DNA of 64,000 nucleotides from Gracilimonas sp. (GTDB lineage: Bacteria > Bacteroidota > Rhodothermia > Balneolales > Balneolaceae), in NCBI RefSeq assembly GCF_017641085.1, contig NZ_JAEPPI010000002.1, forward strand, positions 310,001 to 374,000. Direction: 5' to 3'. A program made the translations under genes and the position numbers. The notes beneath the pieces were generated by a model that saw nothing but the letters and a program-made list of their open reading frames with translations, made no database searches and was not told where the DNA came from. Below are positions 3,495 through 32,488 of the stretch, in pieces. The first letter of the stretch is position 1. Each line of letters opens with the position of its first letter.

Positions 3495-5681
3495 ATGAGA
3501 ACCACCGCCAAAATCACTTATCGTTCTGCCCTCAGAATTTCTGCTTATTCTGCCATCATCCTGCTGTTGTTATCACCAGCTAAGCTATCTGCGCAAACCA
3601 CGGTGCTAAAAGACATAAACCCCGGCATCAGTGATGCGGATATTGAATACATGACTATGGTCGGAGACACCATGTACTTTGTGGCCGACAATCAGGAAGA
3701 TGAAGGCGAGCTGTATATAACAGACGGTACGGCGGAAGGAACCAAGAAAATTACAGACCTGGCTCCGGATGATGATTATCCTGATATCGAAGAACTAACT
3801 CCCTTAGGTAATAAACTCATATTTACAGCCGTAACCGAAGAACATTCTGATGAAGTGTATGTATCAGATGGAACATCTTCAGGCACATATTTACTAAAAG
3901 ATATTTACCCGGGCGATTACTCCTCGGATGCCGAGCATTTTGGAGTGATGAACGGCAAAGCCTACTTCCCTGCTGAAGACGGACGCTACCCCGATGCCGA
4001 TAACGGCGAAGAACTCTGGGTCACAGATGGTACTTCGTCAGGCACCTACATGCTTAAAGATTTAGATCCGGGTCAATATTTACAGTATTCCTGGAGTAAT
4101 GAAGAAACCAACCACAGCTCTCGTCCCGATAACTTTTTTGCACACAATGGTACCATGTATTTTTCAGCCCGCCATCATGAATATGGAGAAGAACTGTGGG
4201 CTACGGATGGAACCGCCGACGGCACTTATATGGTAAAGGACATTTTTCCGGGGTTGTATGAAGATTCTGACGATAACAAAAATGACAGCTCACCTACTAA
4301 TTTTTCATCTATCAATGGCACCGTATTGTTTAACGCCAAAAGTGACACCTCCTACAACTACTACTTATACACCACGGATGGTACAGAAGAAGGCACTATA
4401 AAGTTTTTAGATAAGGAAATACATATCAGGGATAAGCCCGTTGAGTACAAGGGAAGCTGGTACTTTTTTTCAGGTGCTGAATTATGGAAAAGTGACGGCA
4501 CCCCGGAGGGAACATCCCTTGTTATTGATATGGCGATCGATAATTATGTAATTGAGGACGGCTCTGATCTTAGCCCGAAAATTTTCAAGCTAAATAATCA
4601 GCTTTACTTTTTCAGCACCTATACGCTATGGAAAACCGATGGTACCAAAGCCGGAACTGAAAAAGCGGTAGAGTCTATTTTCAACCTGTTTGATTTTCAC
4701 CATACTGAATTTGCAGCGGTATATGACGGACGCATCTACTTTGTTGCATCGGATGATGGGTACGGGCAGGCCCATGTAGCCGGCCGTGAACTATGGATGA
4801 CCGACGGCACTCAAGAGGGTACTATGTATGTAGCCAACCTGCGTACCGGCATCGACCGTGGCGAACCCGATGGCTCTGACCCGGAAGAACTGCGTGTACT
4901 GAATGGAAAGTTATACTTCACCGCTGAAGGTGACTCTTTGGGAAGGGAAATCTGGATGACCAACGGCATCCCTCAGCGACAGGCTCAAATTGAAGACACT
5001 TTGAGACTGGCTGAATTTCCAAACTTTGGTGCAACAGTAAACTTTAATGAAATGACCCAGCCGTTTACCATCAACGCTACCATGAACCTTGGTGCTGAGG
5101 CAGAGCAGATTAACCTCCCCGATACGCTTTCTATGGTTTCAAATAAGCTGTGGGGTTTCCATACCGAAACGACCTCTGCGTTTAATGCTGAGGTCTGCTT
5201 TTCTCTGCAACAAATAGACCTCTCTAACATTGATACGGCATTGTTATCAATCGCGAAAAGAGAATCTGATCAATCCGAATGGAACTTGTTGTCCTCTTCC
5301 TTGACGGACAACCAAGAATCGATTTGTGCATCAGGAATTACCTCTTTCAGTGATTTCACTATTGTTGAACGCCCGCAGCAGAATACCAATGTTTCCACAG
5401 AAGATGAAAATCTACCGCATTCATTTACTCTTAAAAATGCCTACCCCAATCCCTTCAACCCCACTACAACCATCAGTTATTCAATTCCCGAGGCAGGAGA
5501 TGTCCGCCTGACCGTTTATAACCTGGTGGGGCAAAAAATTTCCACCTTGGTTAACGAAAGGCAATCTGCCGGATCGTATCAAATTGACTTTGATGCCGGT
5601 CAGTTATCAAGCGGAATCTATTTTTACCGGCTGGAAGCGGGAGGGCAGGTTCGTGTTAAAAAAATGACGCTGCTTAAATAA
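3495..5681 (+). CDS. Secreted ELWxxDGT-repeat protein with T9SS type A sorting domain
   Basis: This 728-residue protein starts with a signal peptide (hydrophobic AYSAIILLLLSPAKLSAQ, cleavage near residue 34). It carries about nine repeats of an ELWxTDGTxxGT unit (for example EELWVTDGTSSGTYMLKDL), expected to form a beta-propeller-like fold. The last unit is degenerate (EIWMTNGIP). A linker follows, then a C-terminal ~80-residue sorting domain with PNPFNPTTTISYSIP, LTVYNLVGQKI and SSGIYFYRLEAG, the T9SS type A signature. It is probably exported and anchored or released by T9SS. Its ligand is unknown. A PorQ-like protein in this window (15152-16129) supports an active T9SS. Confidence 0.93.
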   Translation: MRTTAKITYRSALRISAYSAIILLLLSPAKLSAQTTVLKDINPGISDADIEYMTMVGDTMYFVADNQEDEGELYITDGTAEGTKKITDLAPDDDYPDIEELTPLGNKLIFTAVTEEHSDEVYVSDGTSSGTYLLKDIYPGDYSSDAEHFGVMNGKAYFPAEDGRYPDADNGEELWVTDGTSSGTYMLKDLDPGQYLQYSWSNEETNHSSRPDNFFAHNGTMYFSARHHEYGEELWATDGTADGTYMVKDIFPGLYEDSDDNKNDSSPTNFSSINGTVLFNAKSDTSYNYYLYTTDGTEEGTIKFLDKEIHIRDKPVEYKGSWYFFSGAELWKSDGTPEGTSLVIDMAIDNYVIEDGSDLSPKIFKLNNQLYFFSTYTLWKTDGTKAGTEKAVESIFNLFDFHHTEFAAVYDGRIYFVASDDGYGQAHVAGRELWMTDGTQEGTMYVANLRTGIDRGEPDGSDPEELRVLNGKLYFTAEGDSLGREIWMTNGIPQRQAQIEDTLRLAEFPNFGATVNFNEMTQPFTINATMNLGAEAEQINLPDTLSMVSNKLWGFHTETTSAFNAEVCFSLQQIDLSNIDTALLSIAKRESDQSEWNLLSSSLTDNQESICASGITSFSDFTIVERPQQNTNVSTEDENLPHSFTLKNAYPNPFNPTTTISYSIPEAGDVRLTVYNLVGQKISTLVNERQSAGSYQIDFDAGQLSSGIYFYRLEAGGQVRVKKMTLLK

Positions 5682-26123: not shown

Positions 26124-26429
26124 CTATTTCTCACGTTTCACTTTATAGACAGTTTCTCCGGGCTTTCTCATCCCATATTCTTCCCGGGCAATTTTTTCGA
26201 GGAGAGCAGGATCGTTATCCAAGTTTTCAATTTTGGTTTTAAGCTCTTCGGATCGCTCGTTCAGTTCAGCTGTACGTTCTTTGAGCTCTTGCTTTTCACT
26301 ATATAAATCCCACCTTGTCTTCAGGCTGTATGAATCAATAAAAGCAAACCAAGCCACTACAAACGCTGTCAGCAAAAGTGCAAGAAAGGACTTTTTCCAG
26401 CGTAATGGATTTAAAAATTGTAGGTTCAT
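26124..26429 (-). CDS. FtsB/DivIC-like septum formation initiator protein
   Basis: The ATG at 26429 gives 101 residues: a short cytoplasmic N-terminus, one TM (SFLALLLTAFVVAWFAF), a coiled coil (~35-65, LKERTAELNERSEELKTKI) and a C-terminal EKIAREEYGMRKPGETVYKV tail (19-residue core) typical of FtsB/DivIC. These proteins link FtsL and FtsQ in the divisome. A start 33 bp upstream is also open (112 residues) but adds a polar stretch with no benefit. It lies 75 bp upstream of the ROK gene on the same strand. Confidence 0.85.
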   Translation of the reverse strand: MNLQFLNPLRWKKSFLALLLTAFVVAWFAFIDSYSLKTRWDLYSEKQELKERTAELNERSEELKTKIENLDNDPALLEKIAREEYGMRKPGETVYKVKREK

Positions 26430-26508
26430 ATATAAGCCTGTAGATTTTCGTTGGCATGTCAAAATACATTAATTTGGCTATTAAGTACAATCCAGTGTTT
26501 TGTATTCT

Positions 26509-28434
26509 ATGAAAAAGCTGACTGTTTTGATTGGATCCTTTACGTTGATGTTTTCAACCCTCTCGGCCTATGCTCAGAGTGATGAATGGATTCAGGTGTA
26601 CTTTAATATGCCAGCCGATCACAACGTTGCTGCCGGCAATAACCTCAGCAACAGTAACCAGGACCTGATCGGATCCCTTGAGCAACTTATTGATTCAGCT
26701 ACAACCAGCATCGATTTCTGTATTTATGATTTTGAACATCCGCGCATAGCTCATGCCTTGGTTCGAGCCAAAAACCGGGGGGTTCGCATCCGCGTGGTTA
26801 CCGACGATCACAACCGAACTGACGGCGGTGATTACGACCTTGAAATCTGGACTATACTAGCTACAGGTGGCATCCTTTCGATGGATGATGACGGCGATAT
26901 CTATAACCCCGACGGAACCATTACCGACAATGACCTGGTGAACGACGGCTCTGACATGCATAATAAGTTTGCCGTTATTGATTACCTGAGTCCTTCCCCG
27001 GATGATGATTACGTGTGGACAGGTTCAACCAACATGACTCTCACCGGGGCGTACAACACCAATCACACCCTTGTTATAAAAGATACGGAGGTGGCCAAAG
27101 CCTATACCGAAGAGTTTGAACAAATGTGGGGCGACTCCGATGAAACGCCGGAAGCTAACCGGGCTGTATTTCATAAAGACAAAAGAAATGTAAGTCAGAA
27201 TGTTTTTGATGTAGGCGGAACCCGGGTTGAAGTCTATTTTGCGCCGGTGAACCGGGATCGCTCCAAACCCAGTGTAAGCGAACGTCTGGTTTCCCTGATT
27301 CGGGATGAAGCCCAGCACGACATTAACTTTCAGGCTTTCGCCATCACCCCGGACATCCCCATCAGCCGCCAAATGTGGGAGCAGTCATCCACCGGAGAAG
27401 TGCTGCTTCGCGGAGCCATAGACCGCAGCTTTTACAGCCGGTATCAAAGTGCCGGTGAGATATGGGGAATAGATTCCGCCCGAATGAACAACCGGATGAT
27501 TTTACCGGCCAACGAACTCCGAAAACTTCACCATAAAGTCATATTACTTGATGCTGAACATCCCGATTCTGCCGACATCGGTGTTACCGTTGCCGGTTCC
27601 TACAACTTTTCCATGAATGCGGAAATGAACAATGACGAGAATACCGTCATTATTTTTTCTGATGAAATTACCAACCAGTTTTACCAGGATTTTATGGGCG
27701 TGATGAAACGAGCCAAAGAGGAGGCCTACCCTCCGGCCCCTCCTCTGGAAACCGACCGGTGGTATGAAGTCTTTTCCATTACCGATGGCAGCCGCTTTGA
27801 AATTGAGATAGCTCCCGGTTTTGGTTACGGTGTTCGATTTCTTGGCGTGGATGTACCAACCATCTATGCCGGGCAGGATTCGGCAGAGTTTTATTCCGGA
27901 GCAGCAGCCGATTACCTGCACAATCTGCTGGAAGGGCGGAAGGTGCGGCTTAAAGGGTTTGACGGAGGAAAACCCGAGGCCAGGTATAATGCCTTTCAGG
28001 CCTATGTAGAAATGCAATACGATGATGGGCCGGTCAGCTTAAATAAAATGCTTCTGGAAAAAGGATTCGGAACAACCTCGGTGTACTATCGCCAAAATGA
28101 TGATTCTGTTGCCGCCTTTAAACGCTACCAGGAATCGGCCAAAGCTAAAGAAGAGGGTCTTTGGAAACATTCTGAAAAAATAGGCTCGAAAACGCTGCGA
28201 GCCGAGGAAGTTGATACCGGAAGCCCGACAAATGTTATGTATCCCATCAATATTAACACAGCTGATGAAGCAACCCTGCAGCTGCTGCCCGGCATCGGCC
28301 CCGCTTACTCAAAACGCATCGTTCAGTATCGGTTGGAGAACGGAAGTTTTAAAAGTGTGGATGAGATTACAAACATTCGGGGCATCGGTCCTAAAACACT
28401 GCAGAAGCTACGGCCAATTATTACGCTGGAATAG
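26509..28434 (+). CDS. Secreted phospholipase D-like / SNase-like / helix-hairpin-helix fusion
   Basis: This 641-residue protein (ATG at 26509; a TTG 9 bp upstream adds three residues) has a signal peptide (LIGSFTLMFSTLSAYAQ). A PLD region (~40-410) has two HKD-type motifs, HNKFAVID and HHKVILLD, each followed by a GS-N motif (TGSTNMT, AGSYNFS). A staphylococcal-nuclease-like domain (~415-560) has VRFLGVD, but the catalytic Glu and second Arg of SNase appear substituted. A C-terminal ComEA-type helix-hairpin-helix pair (INTADEATLQLLPGIGPAYS, then IRGIGPKTL) ends the protein. It is probably an extracellular or periplasmic DNA-binding nuclease. It is a single gene. Confidence 0.9.
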   Translation: MKKLTVLIGSFTLMFSTLSAYAQSDEWIQVYFNMPADHNVAAGNNLSNSNQDLIGSLEQLIDSATTSIDFCIYDFEHPRIAHALVRAKNRGVRIRVVTDDHNRTDGGDYDLEIWTILATGGILSMDDDGDIYNPDGTITDNDLVNDGSDMHNKFAVIDYLSPSPDDDYVWTGSTNMTLTGAYNTNHTLVIKDTEVAKAYTEEFEQMWGDSDETPEANRAVFHKDKRNVSQNVFDVGGTRVEVYFAPVNRDRSKPSVSERLVSLIRDEAQHDINFQAFAITPDIPISRQMWEQSSTGEVLLRGAIDRSFYSRYQSAGEIWGIDSARMNNRMILPANELRKLHHKVILLDAEHPDSADIGVTVAGSYNFSMNAEMNNDENTVIIFSDEITNQFYQDFMGVMKRAKEEAYPPAPPLETDRWYEVFSITDGSRFEIEIAPGFGYGVRFLGVDVPTIYAGQDSAEFYSGAAADYLHNLLEGRKVRLKGFDGGKPEARYNAFQAYVEMQYDDGPVSLNKMLLEKGFGTTSVYYRQNDDSVAAFKRYQESAKAKEEGLWKHSEKIGSKTLRAEEVDTGSPTNVMYPININTADEATLQLLPGIGPAYSKRIVQYRLENGSFKSVDEITNIRGIGPKTLQKLRPIITLE

Positions 28435-28474: not shown

Positions 28475-28516
28475 CTGGTCAAGAGAGAGTCATTAAAAAA
28501 ATTCCATAAAATTGTG

Positions 28517-28589
28517 TGAATCGGGAGGGGCTCGAACCCTCGACCCACGGCTTAAAAGGCCGTTGCTCTACCAACTGAGCTACCGATTC
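28517..28589 (-). tRNA. tRNA-Lys (anticodon TTT)
   Basis: On the minus strand the gene begins GAATCGG and ends CCGATTC plus discriminator A. The D arm is GCTCAGTTGGTAGAGC. The anticodon loop CTTTTAA gives anticodon TTT, and the T arm contains GGTTCGAGC. Its 73 nt form a complete cloverleaf with no encoded CCA. Confidence 0.97.
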
Positions 28590-31536: not shown

Positions 31537-31672
31537 CGCTACATATTTTCCATTTGATTCTATCCCAAAAAAATGAGTTAATTCTTTGGTGGAGTTGAAG
31601 TTAACCAAAAACGGTTTCCGGCTCCCGCTTCAGATATTATTAATTAATTGGATAGCGTACCGGGATATTATT

Positions 31673-32488
31673 ATGAATACAAAAGAACGAGTCGGGATAT
31701 ATGTAGATGCCGTTAACGTAACAATGAATGGAGGGTACGGGCTGCGCTACGATACCCTGCGAATGTTTGCCTGCCGGGGCGGGGGAATTGCTTCACGACT
31801 GAATGTGTATCTTTGTTATGATTCAGATCGCCTCAAAGAAGACCATGAGTATCGCCAGAAAACCCAGCGCTTTTGTGAGGTCCTTCGTGATTTCGAATAT
31901 AAAGTGACGGAGAAGCCGGTTCAAACCTACACCAATCACGAGACCGGCGAAAAGATTTCAAAATCTACCATTGATATGGATATGGCCGTGGATATGTTGG
32001 TTCAGGCCGATCACCTCGACAAAATTGTGTTACTCAGCAGCAGCGGGAGTTATGTAAGCGTGGTGAATGCCATTCAAAATAAAGGCTGCCGGGTGGAGTT
32101 GGTCGGTTTCGACAATGTTTCCTCATCCCTGAAACGAGCCGTAGACTCATCGGTATCCGGTTACCTTATTCCCGGATTATTACCTATCGAATCTCCGTAT
32201 GAGTGGGGGGAAAATGGGTCTCGTGTTCGCGGGGTTTGCTATGATTTCTCTCAGGATGAAGGCTATGGGTTCCTCCGCTTCCTAACCCGGAAAAATGATT
32301 GCCTCTGGATTACAGATTCCCGCGATGAAAACTCTCCTTATAAAACCGTATTTGCTCATGTATCACAGTTCGAGGAGGACTTTGACACGCATTACCTCCC
32401 CAGCCGGGAACTCATTTTCGAGTTTGATGTAACGGAAAATGATAAGGGGCTGATAGCTGAAAGTATCGTGCTGGTAAGTGCTCCGTGA
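31673..32488 (+). CDS. NYN-domain protein with C-terminal cold-shock-like domain
   Basis: The ATG at 31673 gives 271 residues starting directly at the domain; a frame extension to 31586 adds 29 residues with no recognisable content. Residues ~5-160 match the NYN/LabA (PIN-like) fold: GIYVDAVNV (Asp12, Asn15) and STIDMDMAVDML (Asp101/103/107). The usual SGDSDF acidic motif reads SSSGSY (122-127), so part of the metal site is missing. Residues ~183-268 look like an OB cold-shock domain (VRGVCYDFSQDEGYGFLRFL, VFAHVSQF). RNA binding or cleavage is inferred. Confidence 0.82.
   Translation: MNTKERVGIYVDAVNVTMNGGYGLRYDTLRMFACRGGGIASRLNVYLCYDSDRLKEDHEYRQKTQRFCEVLRDFEYKVTEKPVQTYTNHETGEKISKSTIDMDMAVDMLVQADHLDKIVLLSSSGSYVSVVNAIQNKGCRVELVGFDNVSSSLKRAVDSSVSGYLIPGLLPIESPYEWGENGSRVRGVCYDFSQDEGYGFLRFLTRKNDCLWITDSRDENSPYKTVFAHVSQFEEDFDTHYLPSRELIFEFDVTENDKGLIAESIVLVSAP

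Follow-up and report, generated by a model that had tools for sequence, protein, structure and literature searches.

The gene at positions 26509 to 28434 of the window, the whole stretch of 64,000 nucleotides from Gracilimonas sp. analysed here, raises the question of how labour is divided in a protein that joins a PLD part, a SNase domain and a helix-hairpin-helix (HhH) domain on one exported chain. A first-pass annotation of the sequence proposed that the PLD part cleaves DNA while the SNase part, its active site degenerate, may only bind it. Overall, we believe that the protein is probably a Sec-exported phosphodiesterase, most likely a cell-envelope nuclease, in which the PLD part cuts, the HhH domain holds DNA and the SNase domain is a dead module.

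The fusion and its family

The open reading frame starts with an ATG at 26509 and stops at 28434, with a TTG upstream at 26500. Its parts and nearest neighbours are as follows.

26509..28434, + strand: gene of the PLD-SNase-HhH protein, 641 aa (open reading frame, Pfam, relatives)
26509..26574, + strand: hydrophobic export leader, residues 1-22 (sequence; cleavage site between SAYA and Q placed by eye)
26578..27153, + strand: PLD lobe 1, residues 24-215 (Pfam PLDc_2; PLD3/PLD4 fold match)
26959..26982, + strand: HKD motif 1, HNKFAVID, residues 151-158 (H, K and D in 40/40)
27202..27723, + strand: PLD lobe 2, residues 232-405 (second Pfam PLDc_2 stretch; fold match)
27529..27552, + strand: HKD motif 2, HHKVILLD, residues 341-348 (H, K and D in 40/40)
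27751..28188, + strand: SNase-fold domain, best read as a pseudonuclease, residues 415-560 (Pfam; AF2; VIA fold match)
27790..27792, + strand: S428, the place of Asp21 (D in 2/40)
27859..27861, + strand: T451, the place of the catalytic Glu43 (E in 0/40)
27991..27993, + strand: A495, the place of Arg87 (R in 16/40)
28240..28431, + strand: ComEA-like (HhH)2 domain, residues 578-641 (Pfam HHH_3; PDB ComEA 8dss, E 4e-13)
26124..26420, - strand: divIC-like gene, divergent neighbour and conserved locus marker (Pfam and synteny)
28516..28589, - strand: tRNA-Lys(ttt), downstream locus marker (synteny)

The three-domain architecture that the first-pass annotation described is confirmed by Pfam, where all calls exceed the curated cut-offs: PLDc_2 in two stretches (E 5e-33), a SNase domain over residues 442-553 (E 1.8e-11, 44.9 bits against a cut-off of 21) and HHH_3 over residues 580-638 (E 6e-20, 71.5 bits against 27). 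The AF2 model of the whole protein has a pLDDT of 89.1 and a pTM of 0.81, and no SNase match other than the fusion occurs in its genome. All three domains recur in each of the 40 members of the family alignment (A2), from which one locus, L050, was excluded for its broken reading frame. The protein is a real, conserved and well-bounded fusion with a SNase active site that is dead family-wide.

The first-pass annotation had also suggested a search for the same domain order. Of 57 relative genomes, 26 carry it as an uninterrupted full-length frame; 25 of these copies are complete, and the remaining one (L026) runs off its contig. Scanning 84,980 species genomes yielded 528 relatives, and among the best 79 at least 40 loci (L031-L070) carry the fusion while the other 39 (L071-L109) align over the PLD part only. 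Of the latter, 37 are PLD-only frames of about 340-420 aa; the exceptions are L077, a 1113 aa protein with a PLD part and a secretion tail bearing a T9SS sorting domain, and L108, whose frame was not resolved. Since the PLD relatives listed are the best 80 of 528, other architectures may exist. As a separate observation, L027-L030 hold frames of more than 1,000 aa from the same order whose match to the query lies over the PLD pair; they may be exported relatives of that part.

Among these best-scoring relatives the fusion family is nearly confined to Balneolota. Ten of the 40 loci belong to Bacteroidota (Brumimicrobium, Lishizhenia, Fluviicola, a Crocinitomicaceae MAG and one Flavobacteriales MAG), and the remainder are Balneolota by name or by locus. 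In a PLD tree with 15 PLD-only outgroups the ten form one clade (100/100) nested in Balneolota, and they do so again in a SNase-HhH tree (99/97), there adjoining a Balneolales sequence; a divergent divIC-like gene flanks the fusion upstream in 30 of the 40 loci, the ten from Bacteroidota all lacking it there. The trees and the fixed locus together point to vertical descent in Balneolota plus, as the sequences suggest, one transfer of the whole gene into the Crocinitomicaceae clade. A mobile or plasmid origin was considered and rejected, none of 72,556 plasmid records having a place that covers at least 80% of the query. Two further observations concern the locus itself: L039, L040, L042 and L043, all Balneola-type, have the fusion gene set apart from tRNA-Lys by roughly 1.2-1.5 kb of additional sequence, and L050, titled Chitinophagaceae bacterium T5-Br10_B2g13, has a Balneolota-type locus (divIC, ROK, tRNA-Lys) around the gene, so its record name looks wrong.

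The gene stands alone, with divIC divergent and the tRNA downstream. Operon logic was discarded as a clue to function; because the conserved neighbours are housekeeping genes, the synteny is a sign of vertical descent and not of function. Ten genomes lacking a full copy were compared. In five of them (G007, G015, G010, G012 and G020) tRNA-Lys lies about 190-330 bases from divIC and the gene has left no trace; one of the five is of the same genus (G007, L170; about 330 bases). One (G014) retains gene remnants only, with most of the middle missing (L176, G014:C3:212204-212624), another (G017) has a weak match to the leader where its contig breaks off, and in the last three no tRNA-Lys is seen within the stretch examined. 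Absence or decay at a conserved locus in relatives indicates that the gene is dispensable. Elsewhere in the window, 31586-32488 (+) encodes a NYN-domain RNase-like protein with a weak C-terminal cold-shock match, in a block shared with aroQ, HIT and flippase genes.

A SNase domain with a lost active site

The first-pass annotation had read, by eye, a change of Glu43 to threonine and of Arg87 to alanine. Both replacements hold in phmmer and hhalign alignments, and both sites are affected family-wide. The phmmer alignment with staphylococcal nuclease pairs R443 with Arg35, D448 with Asp40, T451 with Glu43 and A495 with Arg87, so that Arg35 and Asp40 are retained in the window copy, as is the equivalent of Asp19. 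Aligning the 40 fusion SNase segments with 28 lone SNases in hhalign (probability 99.7, 130 columns) gave the same register and revealed a degenerate site larger than had been claimed: DGDT has become DGSR, placing S428 where Asp21 should be.

Across the 40 members of A2, the place of Asp21 holds D in 2, that of Arg35 R in 16, that of Asp40 D in 11, that of Glu43 E in none, and that of Arg87 R in 16 and K in 4. The lone SNases of the same phylum keep these residues in 25, 25, 27, 28 and 25 of 28 cases, respectively, a comparison in which the lone set (28 of 30 loci, L143 and L168 having been dropped for giving no hit) was picked from the best-scoring rows and so favours canonical members. The fusion family thus lacks the residue set of an active SNase (Asp21, Arg35, Asp40, Glu43, Arg87), and since lone SNases of the same phylum keep their catalytic residues, the loss belongs to the fusion.

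It might still be argued that the SNase part cuts through a changed site, which would make this a two-nuclease protein. The window copy does carry equivalents of Asp19, Arg35 and Asp40, and Tudor-SN is described as cleaving RNA despite the loss of most SNase catalytic residues, with one retained Asp needed in each of SN1 and SN3 (PMC5900569), so degenerate SNase folds can still cut. In the fusion, however, not one acidic or basic catalytic position is kept family-wide, as the counts for Asp40, Arg35 and Glu43 attest, and we regard a catalytic SNase part as very unlikely.

The first-pass annotation had proposed superposition on SNase folds as a check. Run as a fold match and a profile alignment, it gave Z scores of 17-18 over 132 residues with the register unchanged. 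The AF2 model of the isolated domain (pLDDT 93.9) matches staphylococcal nuclease over chain residues 7 to 141 by Foldseek and VIA (VIA Z 18.1, rmsd 2.5, 132 aligned), and the SNase OB-fold is present. The supply of a Glu or Arg to the site from other positions is unlikely, because the sequence alignments are gapless around the catalytic positions.

The domain is not a relic: 20 of its 146 positions are conserved in 90% or more of the family members, and dN/dS is low at 0.088 (window and L002), 0.157 (L008 and L009), 0.075 (window and L008) and 0.044 (L024 and L025), these being the values from 12 pairs of which the other 8 were saturated in the SNase domain. Several of the best-kept positions (G455, D457, S458, Q529, D532 and S533) differ from the catalytic positions of the nuclease, and a new conserved set, E433, G455-x-D457-S458, N512 and Q529-xx-D532-S533, is kept in 37-39 of the 40 members. 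Judged by these sequence measures, we favour reading the SNase domain as a pseudonuclease module that has been retained.

The proposal that this module serves as the DNA binder gained no support from a comparison of charge. The fusion SNase domains are near-neutral to acidic, their median charge per 100 aa being -1.7, whereas that of lone SNases is +3.3 (p 2e-6). This argues against simple DNA binding, and we rejected the proposal as unsupported; the HhH domain is the better candidate.

Catalysis, DNA binding and location

Both HKD motifs named in the first-pass annotation are intact, with H, K and D invariant in all 40 members of A2, and the protein has the hallmarks of a two-HKD member of the PLD superfamily, namely two HxKxxxxD motifs and a PLD fold (Pfam; Z 33.2 to PLD3). 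A PLD active site is not known to need a metal. The two motifs would form one such metal-independent site, working by a phospho-histidine mechanism; the use of two histidines in the chemistry of this superfamily is established knowledge and is described in PMC10783504. This site would cleave nucleic acid.

The fold by itself leaves the substrate unfixed. Among the 50 matches listed for the whole model, the best are PLD3/PLD4 (Z 31.6-33.2; top match Z 33.2, rmsd 3.1, 328 aligned), and none is a single-HKD nuclease; the Serratia PLD 7e0m (Z 31.9) and vaccinia F13 (Z 31.6) score about as high, within about 1-2 units, while Streptomyces lipid PLDs reach only about 23. One might therefore consider an envelope PLD that acts on lipids, as a phospholipase or transphosphatidylase, and happens to carry nucleic-acid-type modules. 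Consistent with this, 7e0m is described as a phospholipase (PMC8004604), and two HKD motifs per chain, as here, are typical of lipid PLDs, with PLD3/4 given as exceptions (PMC10783504). Against it, two fused domains come from nucleic-acid families, and a sequence profile places three nucleases, Nuc, MitoPLD/Zucchini and NucT, closest among PLD structures. We consider a lipid-acting enzyme unlikely.

With a net charge of -8.4 per 100 aa in the window copy, the PLD part is acidic, a property unfavourable to DNA binding by this part. The acidity was examined as a salt adaptation specific to the fusion and rejected on that count, as 37 PLD-only relatives (L077 and L108 left out) are equally acidic, with a median of -5.7 against -4.7 in the fusion (p 0.17). 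In 30 of the 40 relatives the HhH domain is more positive than the PLD part, and in some it is acidic, down to -9.4 net charge per 100 aa. By sequence profile against the PDB it is most like ComEA, although it scores 70.8 bits against a cut-off of 152.35 for the NCBIfam ComEA model TIGR01259, and 49.6 against 53.1 for TIGR00426. By analogy with known DNA-anchoring domains, the HhH domain would probably be the part that anchors DNA.

The resemblance to ComEA invites a different explanation, in which a competence nuclease processes incoming DNA for ComEC and its HhH domain acts like ComEA. A PLD nuclease, NucT, is described as modestly affecting transformation in H. pylori (PMC5714352). Yet ComEC (PF03772) shows no association with the fusion, being present in 24 of 26 fusion-bearing genomes and in 28 of the 31 that lack it, and we rejected a competence link by co-occurrence; moreover, genome G000 encodes a ComEA-like HhH protein of 180 aa in a frame of its own, and the neighbours tested include no competence gene. 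A competence role is quite unlikely.

The export signal claimed at first pass is there, as the hydrophobic leader of residues 1-22, modelled by AF2 as a helix over residues 2-20 at low confidence. Similar leaders are visible by eye in nearly all 40 members of A2, a few chosen starts (L038, L066) lacking one, and lipobox patterns match in 2 of 40. Sec export is likely on these sequence features. Because Pfam finds no T9SS sorting domain in the protein, the periplasm or outer membrane is as likely a destination as the outside, which the first-pass annotation had suggested. The window does encode a T9SS cargo, a 728 aa protein at 3495-5681 (+) whose one Pfam match is a C-terminal T9SS sorting domain.

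The general working of the probable envelope nuclease can be sketched. Its architecture, its intact HKD motifs, its degenerate SNase site and the upkeep of that domain throughout the family are seen in the sequences; the substrate, the location beyond the inner membrane and the role that we infer are as follows: the PLD site would cut nucleic acid while the C-terminal ComEA-like (HhH)2 domain holds DNA, and the middle SNase domain, its fold kept and its active site lost, would serve as a structural or recognition module. The protein would degrade extracellular DNA that arrives at the envelope of these bacteria of saline waters, be it as a source of nutrients or as biofilm DNA. A bolder version, which has a small chance of being right, would have the new conserved surface of the pseudonuclease serve a PLD3/4-like exonuclease by positioning DNA ends or sensing a nucleotide; the result would be a salt-proof, metal-independent DNA-degrading machine on one chain, passed whole from Balneolota to Crocinitomicaceae.

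Comparison with known systems

The individual parts of the fusion are all known. PLD3 and PLD4, lysosomal exonucleases (PMC10783504), share the single-chain, two-HKD PLD fold and are the best structural match among the 50 listed, but identity is about 16%, the second motif of PLD3 is HKE, and the account in PMC10783504 describes no SNase or HhH fusion partner. The PLD endonucleases NucT, Nuc and MitoPLD are nearest by sequence, but have one HKD per chain and are active as dimers; NucT is described as periplasmic (PMC5714352), and the fusion scores 37.7 against a cut-off of 297 for the NCBIfam NucT model. Tudor-SN (SND1) likewise retains degenerate-site SNase folds within a multidomain protein, but it is eukaryotic, carries tandem SN domains and, as described, keeps RNase activity (PMC5900569). 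Our literature search found no paper on a PLD-SNase-HhH protein by title or abstract.

We take the fusion-bearing organisms, from record titles and general knowledge, to live in saline water. The closest functional precedent is DNaseTA of Thioalkalivibrio sp. K90mix, which resembles the fusion as an exported DNase-type protein with an acidic catalytic part, a saline habitat and a C-terminal ComEA-related (HhH)2 of the type present here. By experiment, DNaseTA has DNase activity up to 4 M NaCl (PMC4486849, PMC4777378), its (HhH)2 serves as a DNA anchor (PMC4486849), and (HhH)2-type domains have been grafted on bovine DNaseI (PMC4777378). It differs in having no intervening SNase domain and in its catalytic domain, which is DNaseI/EEP where that of the fusion is PLD; Pfam finds no DNaseI/EEP domain in the fusion protein, which has PLDc_2 and SNase instead. 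The pairing of PLD with HhH is itself already on record, as PLDc_SF is among the domains found with HhH in the Figure 2 legend of PMC4777378. Salt tolerance of the fusion would follow by analogy, and it stays an analogy because the habitats come from record titles and general knowledge and the comparison of charge did not set the fusion apart. A DNase that is metal-independent and salt-tolerant would have practical value if activity were confirmed.

In this context, the fusion offers a clearly delimited example of a bacterial SNase domain whose catalysis has been lost family-wide and which is still constrained inside what is probably another nuclease. It is an unusual variant of the exported, HhH-anchored nucleases, and it suggests that the HhH-anchor solution of a salt-tolerant DNaseI-type enzyme has been adopted by PLD enzymes too.
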